Assembly (NCBI GenBank): GCA_034231615.1
Contig: CM067302.1
Location: 15,455,274-15,519,273, forward strand
Direction: 5' to 3'
Origin: Meghimatium bilineatum
Taxonomy: Eukaryota > Mollusca > Gastropoda > Stylommatophora > Philomycidae
DNA: 64,000 bases
Every line of letters starts with the position of its first letter. Positions within the stretch are counted from its first letter, which is position 1. The translations under genes were made by a program, and so were the position numbers. Under the pieces are notes generated by a model. It was not told the origin of the DNA and did no database searches. It saw only the letters and a program-made list of their open reading frames with translations. Shown piece after piece: positions 1 through 64,000 of the stretch.

Positions 1-44
1 CGCCTACGTCACCCGGCATGGCACATGATAATGATGAAGTTAAA
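1..44 (+). mobile_element. 3' end of a group A LINE, cut by window start
   Basis: The first bases (gcctacgtcacccggcatgg, then cacatgataatgatga) match the 3' terminus of the better-preserved LINE copies ending near 19180 and 58865, which read gcctacgccagccggcatgg followed by cacctgatgatgatga. The coding end would be …SRHGT-stop and the GAT repeats are the element's own tail. The body lies outside the window. Confidence 0.7.
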
Positions 45-129
45 TTATATAGTACTTTTTCAAGCATATTAATGTGAAATAACATTAAAACAAATTCTCA
101 ATGATCATTGTATAAAATAAAGTAGGCCT

Positions 130-204
130 ATATATGTGAGTGTGTGTGTATATATATATATATATATATATATATATATATATATATATATATATATATA
201 TATA
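130..204. repeat. (TG)n/(TA)n microsatellite
   Basis: A short gtgtgtgtg run passes into an uninterrupted TA dinucleotide run of about 55 bp. Purely low-complexity. Confidence 0.95.
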
Positions 205-446
205 ATGTAAAGCACCCCATAGCATTTATTAATGCCGTAGGGGTGTGAGATATTAGTGATCTCACATTTCAGAGGCTCTGCAAATGAGGGCTATAGCCAT
301 CTCGTCTCCCTCGCAGTCTTAATACGGTACCCATTTAAGCCTGGGTCGACCCGGGAGCCGTTGCGATCTGAGAAACATTACCAGCTCAACTGGAGAATGA
401 ACACATGACCACTCATATGCGAAGGGAGTGCGCCAACCACTGCTCC
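205..446 (-). mobile_element. SINE-like repeat with degenerate tRNA-like head
   Basis: Read on the minus strand, the right end (about 380-446) begins ggagcagtggttggcgcact, which has an A-box-like tggttggcgc, and about 35 bp later gtgttcattctcc, a degenerate B-box. The body contains gggtcgacccgg and ends in a small inverted repeat, caccccatagc against gtaggggtg. It sits between two microsatellites. Assignment as a tRNA-derived SINE is inference from these weak boxes. Confidence 0.4.
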
Positions 447-448
447 CC

Positions 449-553
449 ATATGTATATGTGTGTGTGTGTGTGTGTGCGCGCGCGCGCGTGTGTGTGTGT
501 GTGTGTGTGTGTGTGTGTGTGTGTGTGTGAGAGAGAGAGAGAGAGAGAGAGGA
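449..553. repeat. Compound microsatellite (TG)n(CG)n(TG)n(GA)n
   Basis: Alternating purine-pyrimidine for about 80 bp, including a seven-step gcgcgc core flanked by gtgtgt tracts, then gagagaga to about 551. The composition is of the type known to favour Z-DNA. Confidence 0.95.
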
Positions 554-1426
554 TAAAATAATAATAATTTTAAAAAAAATTTTTATTAAAAAAATATATT
601 AAAAATTTCCACAGGTACCTACCTCACTACCAGCTACTCCTTGACGTCAAGAAACGGGCGAATCACAAGAAATTACAACCAGGAATCCCTGGACGAAAGC
701 AACAGTAGATCAGTACCCAAATCAAGAATCACAGTCAACTCAAAACTATCCAGGTATCAATGGTATCCAGGATTATCAAAAAATAACAAAACACCAAAAC
801 AGGAAAACCAAACACAATTCAATGATTTTTTTTAAACAGACGGCAAAAGAAGGGCATACTTTAACCGAAACATTCAGATATCACGCAAATATCAGAAGTA
901 TTCATTAATTCTTTATTTCTAAATGTGTTTTATGTCCTGTCGTAAAAATGCACAGACTAGAGGAAACTACAGTATTGAGACATGAACACTACAGGAAACT
1001 AAAGTACTGAGACATCCAGGGAAAAGGTAATAAAGTTTTGCTGATACTAGATAACACACATAATGACACACACGATGTTTCGACCAAAATGCCTTTATCA
1101 AGACAGACAATTGAACAAAATTAAAACATATAACAGAAAACGAACAGTAACGATTGACTGGAAGAGGCGAAAAAAATGATTTGAAAAATGAAAGAAAACT
1201 CAAATATTTAGACCTTACATTTCCAGGAAAATAAGTGTTGCTGTTTTATTTTCCTTCAACATATTACATCAACGTTTCAACCATAACGTCTTTCTCAAGA
1301 AAAATACATACTAACAGATACCAAACGATAAATAGTTATATCACTAGTAAACTATACTGCAGACATTTATCAAATGTAAAATCCAAGGTAAAAAAAACAT
1401 GCCACGAGTAACTGCTGCAAACTCTT
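554..1426. other. No gene recognised; short diverged direct repeat
   Basis: AT-rich sequence. A 64-codon open frame at 641-835 has no recognisable motif. A block starting gatgtttcgaccaaaatg near 1074 recurs in diverged form near 1271 (aacgtttcaaccataacg), each followed by a ctttnTcaaga segment, so this is probably an old duplicated repeat. Confidence 0.4.
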
Positions 1427-1523
1427 GGTATTCAGACGTGACCGCTGAAGTAAATTTTAGTATTCAAACGTGACCATCCGCAGAAAACTCTAGTATTCAG
1501 ACGTGACCGCTACAATAAACTCT
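1427..1523. repeat. 32-bp tandem repeat, 3 copies
   Basis: Three diverged units each start with gtattcaracgtgacc; spacings are 32 and 33 bp. Confidence 0.8.
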
Positions 1524-1734
1524 AGTTTTGAAATGATGGTAACGATCAACTGATTTCATGGTAATGAGGATAGTGGTTGTCTCCATTCGGCTACAACAAC
1601 CAGCTAACCGCACTGCCGGAAAGCAGAGACCTAGGTTCGATTTCATCTGCTGCTTGGTGTTGTTCAACATAAGAATTTCCGTGTGGCTAATTTCGCACAA
1701 CAGTAATGATCAAATGAATTTCTCCATGCTCTTT

Positions 1735-2562
1735 ATTTATAACTTTCTCTCTCCACAGTGTGGTAAACTATAAATATAATTTATAACTTTCTCTCTCCAC
1801 TGTGTGGTAAACTATAAATATAATTTATAACTTTCTCTCTTCACTGTGTGGTAAACTATAAATATAATTTATAATTTTGTCTCTCCAATGTATGGTAAAC
1901 TATAAATATAATGTATATCTTTCCACATTGCACGGTAAATTATGAATATAATTTATTACTTTCTCCACTGTATGGTAAACTATAAATATAATTGATAACT
2001 TTCTATCTCCACTGTATGGTAAACTATAAATATAATTGATAACTTTCTATCTCCACTGTATGGTAAACTATAAATATAATTGATAACTTTCTATCTCCAC
2101 TGTATGGTAAACTATACATATAATTGATAACTTTCTATCTCCACTGTATGGTAAACTATAAATATAATTGATAACTTTCTATCTCCACTGTATGGTAAAC
2201 TATAAATATAATTGATAACTTTCTATCTCCACTGTATGGTAAACTATAAATATAATTGATAACTTTCTATCTCCACTGTATGGTAAACTATAAATATAAT
2301 TGATAACTTTCTATCTCCACTGTATGGTAAACTATACATATAATTGATAACTTTCTATCTCCACTGTATGGTAAACTATAAATATAATTGATAACTTTCT
2401 ATCTCCACTGTATGGTAAACTATAAATATAATTGATAACTTTCTATCTCCACTGTATGGTAAACTATAAATATAATTGATAACTTTCTATCTCCACTGTA
2501 TGGTAAACTATAAATATAATTGATAACTTTCTATCTCCACTGTGTGGTAAACTATAAATAAG
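1735..2562. repeat. 44-bp minisatellite, about 19 copies
   Basis: Each unit contains aactttctatctccactg, tatggtaaac and tataaatataattgat. The first five or so units are diverged (ctctctccac, tttataact), while those from about 1970 onward are nearly identical. The array ends sharply at 2562. Confidence 0.97.
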
Positions 2563-2609
2563 ACATGCAGCAGTGAGCCTGAATTTTAAAAACTGGGAAC
2601 ATTCTATTC

Positions 2610-62120: not shown

Positions 62121-62324
62121 ACAAGCGATATCAGAATGAAACATATAAACACGTCATCACTTCCTGCACACAGATTGTATTTACGTAAGCAGATTCTGCG
62201 AAATGCTGGGCGTATGTAAAGTCCATGAACACTGAAGTCTCGACATTCCGCACTAAATAATCACAATTCATTTGACGTAGTGTCACCACCATTTTGAATG
62301 AGAGCGCAGTGACTTTGTTGGTAA

Positions 62325-62505
62325 AGTTCATCATCATCAAGTGCCGTCTCCGCAACGAAGGTTGGCTGCAACGTATCTCCAACATCTCCTGTCTCTTGTC
62401 TTGGTGGTGCACTCTGCTAGACTGTAACCTGTCCATCGTGTAATGTTACTCTCCCACTTGTATCTCTGCCTACCTCTTGCTCGCTTCCCTTTGGTAAAGT
62501 TAGAA
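62325..62505 (-). mobile_element. Group G LINE C-terminal end
   Basis: Plus strand: catcatcatcaagtgccgtc, tccgcaacgaaggttggctg, ctgtccatcgtgtaatgtta and ctacctcttgctcgcttccc, the reverse of 39965-40160 at high identity by eye. Confidence 0.82.
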
Positions 62506-62509
62506 TCCC

Positions 62510-62635
62510 ATTATAAAAAAATTCTTGAGACTAACGGGAATTGAACCAGTCCGTTCTACGGCACCAAATCGCCTAGCAACAATTGCACACGCGTTTTTCC
62601 GTACTTGACTAACCGCATCTCCCATTATAATAATT
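62510..62635 (-). mobile_element. tRNA-derived SINE
   Basis: The minus strand carries ggttcaattcc (B-box, one mismatch) about 35 bp after a gctaggcgatttgg A-box-like run, and then ttagtctcaagaatttttt. The 3' part recurs at 59010. Confidence 0.6.
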
Positions 62636-62702
62636 AGAAATGAATCCCATTATAACAATTTGATCCGGGCAGACAAAATATGTATGTAATAACAGAAATT
62701 CG

Positions 62703-62815
62703 CTATACACAGTACGAACAATATAGAATAAATATAATTGGGGATTTTGAAAAGTGTTGTTATACAGGGAAACGTGTTATAAAAGAAAGCGATATAGAAG
62801 GATTCCACTTTATAC
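62703..62815. mobile_element. Diverged copy of the 98-bp TA MITE
   Basis: tacacagtacgaacaatata, aaatataattggggattttg, gttgttatacagggaaacgt and agaaggattccactttata parallel 52127-52224 throughout. Confidence 0.55.
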
Positions 62816-63608
62816 ATAAGAACACACTCGAGTTGCGATCTCTGACCACTTTCCTTCTATAAAATGAGGTCGCGACTCGAAATATGTTGGGAACCATTAT
62901 TTTAGACTACAGACACAATAATAAAAAAAACAAATAAAAGTTATGCATTCTTCGCGAACATGAAGGAAAGAAGAATACATAAATGTCAGTTTATATATTT
63001 ATGGACAATGCTTTTTAAATAGTAGACATATCATTTGCTAACTTCATAGATGTCAGTGTAACATAATCTAGGTAGCTTTCATGTAGTATTGTTATAGGCA
63101 GAAGAGAATGATATTTAATTGCAAGGACTGGTAAAGTAGACTTATGCAGCAACCGCATTCACATACATTCACTTTTAAAATATAACATTAACTCATTTAG
63201 TACCACAAACCTCAAGCTGTGGTATTAAACTATTTTCACCAGCACCACAAGCGTTAGTGAGTGCTGCGATTTATTTCGTAGTAAATGTTTTTCTAATTTT
63301 TCTCATAAGTGTTACAACCCTTTCAAATATTTTTTTAAAAACAATATACTCTGACATTATTGAACTATCACATTTTAATCAACATTTAGGCAGTGGTAGA
63401 TGCAGATCTTGTACTACGTTTATATGTAAGCAGGCACCTCTGGCTGCTGCATAGCTTTCCTGACAAAACCACAGGTCCTCCTCGGATGAGTAACCGAGGT
63501 TACACCCCTGTTCTCGTACAAGGCACATTGTCTCAAGGGCATGGGTGTGTTTTGCAGTTTATGGATGCATGTTGATTCCACAAGGAAGGCGTTTTAATGC
63601 AGCTGTAT
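62816..63608. other. No gene recognised
   Basis: Short open frames at 63257-63575 have no recognisable motif. Confidence 0.4.
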
Positions 63609-63722
63609 GCCAGGATTATTACGATGCACCAGACGTGTGGCATATACATCTGACAGGATTATCACGATCTTCCAGACGTGTAGTAGATATATTTGATAGG
63701 ATTATCACGTTTCTCCAGACAT
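63609..63722. repeat. 43-48-bp tandem repeat, 2.6 copies
   Basis: caggattattacgatgcacc agacgtgt recurs as caggattatcacgatcttcc and taggattatcacgtttctcc. Confidence 0.85.
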
Positions 63723-63924
63723 GCAGCATCTGACATTCACAACCAGATAGGAGTCAGTCATGGATGGACGAATTTGCAAAGTTAAATGGATTGAATCTCT
63801 TCATCATACATAGGGATTTTTTGATACCAGATAAAAGTAAAGAAAATTCAGACAAGACACAAACGAAGGGGACAACAAGATGAATTTTGGCGGCAGTAAC
63901 ACAAGAAGAAAAGCCCCGACACAG

Positions 63925-64000
63925 AGTCATCAATCAATCAATAAACCCGTAACCCTTCAGGCTCGTAGGTGTACCACATTGGGTGCTTCAGTACACAGAG
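63925..64000 (-). mobile_element. Group F LINE 3' end, cut by window end
   Basis: Plus strand: catcaatcaatcaataaacc (tail), cgtaacccttcaggctcgta and ggtgtaccacattgggtgct. On the minus strand this is …LCTEAPNVVHLRA… with a (TTGA)n tail. Confidence 0.75.

Follow-up and report, generated by a model that had tools for sequence, protein, structure and literature searches.

Tandem arrays of the window

Tandem arrays make up 26.4% of the window (the whole stretch of 64,000 nt analysed here), and in a randomly drawn 200 kb 133 arrays account for 17.2% of the sequence. The initial annotation had linked twelve arrays of the window with transposons, and TRF recovers all twelve, their starts lying at most 16 bp from those listed. 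For six of them (designated by first position: 4331, 25157, 25869, 27368, 39404 and 56810) the whole 1.61-Gb genome was the search space, and the best 40 candidates per query were scored, so that the match counts are lower bounds; for the other six (18340, 28628, 35979, 41632, 48149 and 55553) the comparison was confined to a 264-kb sample. A dispersed-repeat unit is present in five of the six genome-wide cases (4331, 25157, 25869, 39404 and 56810), and to this extent the list stands. The exception is the array at 27368–27708 (15.5 copies of a 22-bp unit), which lies beyond its neighbouring repeat: all 39 scored non-self matches end at query positions 106–118, and the array begins at 161, about 45 bp further. 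Its unit has no match at any other place among the scored genome candidates.

Among the arrays compared with the sample, a repeat starts 1 bp to the right of those at 18340–18474 (11-bp units) and 35979–36049 (19-bp units), adjoins the right side of the one at 48149–48240 (20-bp units), and adjoins both sides of a TCTA microsatellite at 41632–41822; four of the six thus abut a repeat within 1 bp. The array at 28628–29399 (17-bp units) has its nearest repeat 26 bp away on the left and 274 bp away on the right; for that at 55553–56006, the units of which vary (26, 99 and 125 bp), the nearest lies 38 bp away on the left. The units of the 18340 and 41632 arrays are too short for testing. Those of 28628, 35979, 48149 and 55553 have no match in the main unit test on the 264-kb sample, and the 35979 unit gave a 16-bp match at 62049 in one sample test.

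Reverse transcriptase domains (PF00078), expected of LINEs (non-LTR retrotransposons), are found in elements of the window on the minus strand at 36749–37330 and 50570–51001; the name LINE A is that of the initial annotation. Pfam matches to six families, one of them poxvirus-named, in a reading frame of an array (19619–20374) were dismissed as chance, the frame being repetitive.

Arrays grown within dispersed elements

The array at 4331–5264 consists of 24 copies of a 39-bp unit and sits in a copy of the dispersed repeat LINE A (genome search, best 40 of 2,653 first-look candidates). A minus-strand sibling (15786–15398) has about 60 bp where the array would be, and many siblings genome-wide hold the unit once. 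Judged by these siblings, the array grew from LINE A's own sequence, after insertion.

Two arrays of 24-bp units allow the same comparison. The first (25157–25662, 21.2 copies) lies within a short dispersed element at 25056–25692, about 154 bp long when collapsed, which the initial annotation classed as a hAT MITE and which we list as a putative one. Elements of this class are short, dispersed and without coding capacity, with terminal inverted repeats and an 8-bp target-site duplication. All 38 non-self matches (from the best 40 of 1,765 first-look candidates) pass uninterrupted through the site and hold a single unit, in about 154 bp of common sequence. The second array (12749–13095, 14.5 copies), absent from the initial list, lies within a dispersed repeat; all 39 scored non-self matches of a genome search cross it with a single unit, and it is one of four arrays spanned by a repeat in the sample test. 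Both expanded in their own copies, the siblings keeping the unit once. The earlier proposition that sibling copies lacking the expansion show its direction is borne out at these two sites and by many LINE A siblings.

Three further arrays involve the ends or edges of elements. That at 25869–26860 (15 copies of 66 bp), at the edge of the element named LINE C, has a dispersed-repeat unit matched in the genome search at no fewer than 39 places beyond the array, each about one unit in length; in the 264-kb sample a repeat is met 2 bp from the array on its right side. The array at 39404–39581 (4.2 copies of 42 bp) repeats the terminal part of a dispersed element, the rest of which extends rightward; the array's unit is mostly covered in 24 of the 39 scored non-self matches, partly in 4 and not at all in 11. 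At 56810–57726 (22.9 copies of 40 bp) an element end is repeated within a second dispersed repeat, 12 siblings of which hold its two sides about 25 bp or less apart. The genome search found three or more tandem matches to the 56810 unit, spaced by 30, 42 or 44 bp, at six other scored places.

This last observation would fit families that carry a copy-variable short repeat, the arrays travelling with the element and not being born site by site. So would a second copy of the short element (L026:7347–7424), which bears a 24-bp array related to that of the window, and a 106/107-bp unit common to two loci (L010 and L019) in one repeat. Such carriage covers some families and not most arrays, and as a general account it is very unlikely: in the sample a unit is common to only six array pairs, units being mostly private; every scored match at 25157 and 12749 has the unit singly; and expanded copies carry differing units (39, 35, 57 and 41, 38 bp) at a single LINE A site.

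LINE A copies and their junctions

The suggestion that this LINE A site is a hotspot was rejected. The initial search for siblings had used a query with two units, which favoured expanded copies. A survey was made with flank only (query 4081–4320, from the LINE A stretch at 4080–4320 left of the array, inferred to lie in minus orientation), in which the best 40 of 3,937 first-look candidates were scored. None of the 39 scored LINE A copies was expanded (two or more cores) at the 4331 site; 30 have one recognisable core, 8 have none and in one it is displaced. Five LINE A copies were checked for the order of events, and one of them (L066) was inserted into an older array, i.e. the array came first and LINE A second.

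Both results speak against the model of the initial annotation, in which transposon insertion triggers minisatellite growth within or next to the new copy. In its favour are the transposon-derived units of five of the six listed arrays tested genome-wide and the one-sided arrays within about 80 bp of four of some 32 visible LINE A ends, where about 1.2 would be expected from array density. Taken with the placement tests given below, which supply evidence on both sides, the model is highly improbable.

In the model of Haber and Louis, as described in PMC3389668, minisatellites are born between short direct repeats. On this model direct repeats of 5 bp or more would be expected at unit borders in the unexpanded sequence. 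In the LINE A copy L032 7-bp direct repeats border both units, and 30 plain copies gave no such repeat in 13,200 positions. The remaining LINE A junctions have direct repeats of 3–5 bp, which is not above chance. A 6-bp junction repeat for the 4331 array of the window was withdrawn, having been derived from another copy near 11584.

Placement of arrays relative to repeats

In the sample, which misses old repeats, units match dispersed repeats in 17 of 129 arrays against 30.4 at matched random placement, and sites bridged by siblings are about threefold rarer among arrays (8 of 120) than at random (479 of 2,400; p = 1.2e-4). Array interiors within repeats are likewise depleted relative to matched random placement. 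The flanks of arrays match repeats at or slightly under background, and 60-bp flanks taken at a 150-bp offset do so slightly over all controls (74 of 195 vs 62.3). The claim that arrays prefer transposon sequence thus finds no support in the shuffled-placement test on the sample, their units matching repeats less often than random placement would give.

The companion claim, that arrays lie at transposon edges, has proximity on its side and not contact. Within 15 bp of a repeat there are 28 arrays against 32.4 expected, no enrichment under matched-cut controls, and at 15–80 bp there are 31 against 21.0. In the window alone 14 of 39 arrays lie at 15–80 bp where 7.7 are expected, and to this extent the edges noticed in the initial annotation are well founded. 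A shuffle with the arrays excised placed 18 arrays within 15 bp of edges against 7.9 (P = 0.002); this was judged an artefact, since excision breaks alignments at real arrays and not at shuffled points, and the matched-cut control abolished the contact excess.

The bridged-site deficit is greatest for repeats with close siblings, where numbers are small and the identity rank test alone gives p = 0.27; repeats with distant siblings show no depletion (3 vs 2.1). If new insertions fed minisatellite growth the opposite would be predicted, and this part of the initial annotation is not supported. Although the excess at 15–80 bp counts for an insertion trigger, the depletion of units and bridged sites and the contact without enrichment count against it. 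Repeats that split an array, one unit recurring to their left and right, are about fourfold rarer than expected (8 of 178 vs 103 of 600 random points), and the missing interior arrays turn up at 15–249 bp from repeats. Age as the cause of the deficit, the arrays simply being older, is hinted at by the close-sibling deficit, but split repeats are too rare for it.

Origin of the arrays

Private minisatellites probably arise genome-wide by local tandem duplication, the transposons being a passive substrate that records the pre-expansion state. Local duplication of any sequence present would start a private minisatellite, which may then lengthen in place by slippage or unequal exchange; transposon copies would contribute passively, new insertions not feeding array growth. 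Growth in place is demonstrated in several elements, as are the differing units at one LINE A site and the lack of preference in the sample. Since the unexpanded sequence survives in thousands of siblings, births inside transposons are easily seen, and easily over-counted.

The cause of the array deficit inside recognisable repeats we can only infer, and passive birth alone fails to account for both this deficit and the scarcity of split arrays. One reading is mutual exclusion, in which recognisable transposon bodies are refractory to the birth of arrays, and arrays for their part either shed insertions or escape them; the scarcity of bridged sites and of repeats that split an array and the reappearance of interior arrays at 15–249 bp all point to it. 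Arrays do occur, however, inside LINE, the short element and others, repeats with distant siblings are undepleted, and the old repeats are missed by the sample; this reading is unlikely. That young transposon bodies in particular resist minisatellite birth, arrays avoiding or expelling transposons, is doubtful; were it true, such exclusion would follow from silencing of element bodies plus the removal of inserts when the units on either side recombine.

Under local tandem duplication with passive transposons, dense arrays and dense transposons can together yield a striking transposon-linked list without any preference. Minisatellite birth is usually inferred from finished arrays; thousands of LINE A copies, few of them expanded and with differing units at one spot, make its rate, borders and age dependence measurable.

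Comparison with known systems

Transposon-derived minisatellites are already known in human, where they comprise 23% of minisatellites by the authors' criteria (Ahmed and Liang 2012, PMC3389668) and are reported to be more numerous in younger elements. The present arrays join that class, with units of transposon sequence, mostly at single loci and grown in place. They differ from the human ones as described there in a far higher array density and in that close-sibling repeats hold fewer arrays than expected. Satellites derived from transposon ends and UTRs (PMC9659126) are matched by the 39404 and 56810 units, which come from element ends; those satellites, as presented there, are long and multi-locus, whereas the arrays here are short and local, and the 4331 and 25157 units are internal. 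Exceptional tandem-repeat density is shared with Atlantic cod, for which PMC5241972 gives 10.9% (7.96% in another table) against 17.2% of the random sample here, figures obtained with other settings and only roughly comparable. TTAGGG-type repeats, which speak against a typical arthropod, were observed at two of three contig starts.

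Array density and sampling

TRF analysis of the window returned 92 rows, which merged into 57 arrays totalling 16,916 bp (26.4%). The comparison set comprises 20 random 10-kb stretches (L009–L028) from 11 contigs, 200 kb in total, placed below the coordinate bounds known at the time; these contain 133 arrays, which together cover 17.2% of the sequence (0.7% to 43.6% per stretch); 96 of them have a period of 9 or more and a score of 100 or more. PMC5241972, whose settings differ from ours, puts typical eukaryotes at 0.5–3% and Atlantic cod at 10.9%, or at 7.96% by another of its tables; the value found here is unusually high for an animal. 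Transposon-derived minisatellites are already a known kind: a study of human minisatellites reports that 23% are transposon-derived, that they are commoner in younger elements and that some families contain hotspots (PMC3389668), and one conclusion of a review is that the substrate may come from any part of an element (PMC9659126). Two things stand out against this background: how densely arrays fill this genome, and the deficit of arrays inside repeats with close siblings, that is, with other similar copies of the same repeat.

The window and the random stretches form a 264-kb sample that doubles as its own repeat library. The tests below use its 129 arrays with a period of 15 or more and a score of 100 or more, or 120 where flanks were needed, nine being dropped for short flanks; they draw on common data and are not independent of one another. 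The sample amounts to 0.016% of the genome searched (1.612 Gb, 32 contigs) and misses old or rare elements, as with the array at 39404, whose unit has no match in the sample and many genome-wide. The controls share this blind spot, but unequally if arrays mainly occupy old repeats.

Origin of individual arrays

Genome-wide queries, each with about 40 scored candidates, covered six of the twelve arrays listed in the initial annotation; arrays are named by their start in the window. In five (25869, 4331, 56810, 39404 and 25157) the unit consists of dispersed-repeat sequence, upholding the proposal that some listed arrays derive from transposons; the exception is 27368, where all 39 scored matches of the neighbouring repeat end about 45 bp short of the array. 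At 25157 all 38 non-self matches scored run through the site with a single unit. Among the matches scored for 56810, twelve siblings have the two sides of the surrounding repeat no more than about 25 bp apart, and the array and its element end therefore appear to have been inserted into that repeat; the array's unit occurs as three or more tandem matches at six other places, spaced by 30, 42 or 44 bp or multiples thereof. Four unlisted arrays were drawn at random from 29, and the one with a genome-wide result, 12749, lies inside a repeat in 39 of 39 scored matches; it was already among the four spanned arrays of the sample test described below. Since five listed units are dispersed-repeat sequence and 12749 lies inside a repeat, arrays born in transposons are real and extend beyond the initial list.

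The other six listed arrays were compared with the 264-kb sample only. There, 18340, 35979, 41632 and 48149 each lie 1 bp or less from a repeat on one side or both, and the nearest repeats to 28628 and 55553 are 26 and 38 bp away, respectively. Elsewhere, a 106/107-bp tandem unit common to L010:1349-1640 and L019:2869-3114, in the same repeat and present in shorter form in L014 and L021, is probably carried by an element.

Placement of arrays relative to repeats

The broader claim was that arrays arise preferentially from transposon sequence or transposon edges, new insertions feeding minisatellite growth. For the units, matched placement gave the opposite: 15 of 129 matched dispersed non-array copies against 21–32 in five length-matched segment sets, and 17 of 129 matched dispersed repeats against a mean of 30.4 (24–42) in same-locus controls; with the latter controls the count in the window alone was 7 of 39 (8.9 expected). 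Matches were found for 59 of 234 adjacent 60-bp flanks (control mean 76.2) and 92 of 201 150-bp flanks (100.5), and for 74 of 195 60-bp flanks at a 150-bp offset, slightly over the controls (62.3). Repeats are as dense in the 200 bp next to arrays as at greater distances (75/159 versus 339/727 segments). With arrays collapsed, a single alignment crossed 4 of 120 sites (25.7 expected), any flank match was seen at 98 of 120 (94.8) and an edge at 40 of 120 (46.8). Both flanks were bridged by one sibling in 8 of 120, against 24.85 expected and, with other controls, 479 of 2,400 (Fisher p = 1.2e-4).

The results on edges were mixed. Against a shuffle on sequence with arrays excised, 18 of the 120 real sites lay no more than 15 bp from a repeat edge (7.9 expected, P = 0.002), 31 outside repeats within 80 bp (18.8), 79 beyond 80 bp (69.1) and 6 deep inside repeats (24.2). 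Excision disrupts alignments at real arrays and not at shuffled points, and the test was therefore rerun with control flanks cut alike. The excess in contact within 15 bp then vanished (28 versus 32.4); proximity at 15–80 bp persisted (31 versus 21.0, controls 14–31), with 29 versus 20.1 at 80–249 bp, 25 versus 26.2 without a match and 7 versus 20.4 bridged. In the window, 14 of 39 arrays lie 15–80 bp from a repeat (7.7 expected), exceeding all 50 controls. At 15–80 bp, arrays are thus near repeats beyond chance, yet as the counterpart of their rarity inside them.

Arrays at LINE A copies

LINE A is the name given initially to the element that holds the 39-bp array at 4331. In a whole-genome query with two units, a biased one that favoured expanded copies, several LINE A copies bear their own arrays at this site: a 35-bp unit (2.1 copies) in L031, a 38-bp unit (7.9 copies) in L033, and, at L032:641-1589, a 57-bp array (15.1 copies, 100% match) followed by a 41-bp array (3.2 copies, 100%); L034 has one copy. 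As the units differ among copies, these arrays would be separate births. Growth in L032, with two nested units, is very recent or homogenised. Direct repeats of 7 bp border two L032 junctions, against none at 13,200 positions in 30 plain copies; at the window, L031 and L033 junctions the best border repeats are 3–5 bp, no excess over chance allowing for the position search.

A search with the left flank only (3,937 first-look candidates, 40 scored), which retrieved all 39 other copies for 520 bp past the query, found none of the 39 expanded (30 with one core, 8 without, 1 displaced). Thousands of copies offer many chances, and a hotspot at this site was rejected. The 9,571 bp of LINE-homologous sequence past the query contain no array that reaches the period of 15 and the score of 100 used above, save a 4-bp edge overlap in L066, a count that leans low in that any array would break the homology.

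By our reading the LINE A homology end is visible in 32 of the 39 copies, and in five of the 32 an array begins no more than about 80 bp from that end. In one of these, related 43-bp units flank the copy on both sides (L066:483-766 and L077:772-1460); because the matching unit lies on its other side, this LINE entered a pre-existing array. The unit is one-sided at the other four, against about 1.2 expected at 450 such arrays per Mb, a small-number hint in favour of edge-born arrays.

Age and order of arrays and repeats

Bridged arrays, grouped by best sibling identity, number 3 below 78% (2.1 expected), 2 at 78–86% (8.55) and 3 at 86% or more (13.3); by a rank test, the difference in identity had p = 0.27. 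The pattern suits a slow, even birth of arrays, with young copies still array-free. Repeats with the same unit on both sides are also rare (8 of 178 segments versus 103 of 600 random points). This suggests either that arrays mostly postdate the repeats or that inserts are lost from arrays. Age by itself does not explain both this rarity of split arrays and the deficit inside repeats.

Other features

The 45-bp array at 48478-49516 in the window has a 180-bp higher-order period, and a diverged stretch at 49973-50061 resembles this array at 74%. At 25913-26899 and 19619-20374, long open frames extend through arrays whose period is divisible by 3; Pfam matches on the latter look like chance. Among three contig starts, CCCTAA repeats open C25 (L080) and C23 (L081), and a minisatellite opens C1 (L079).
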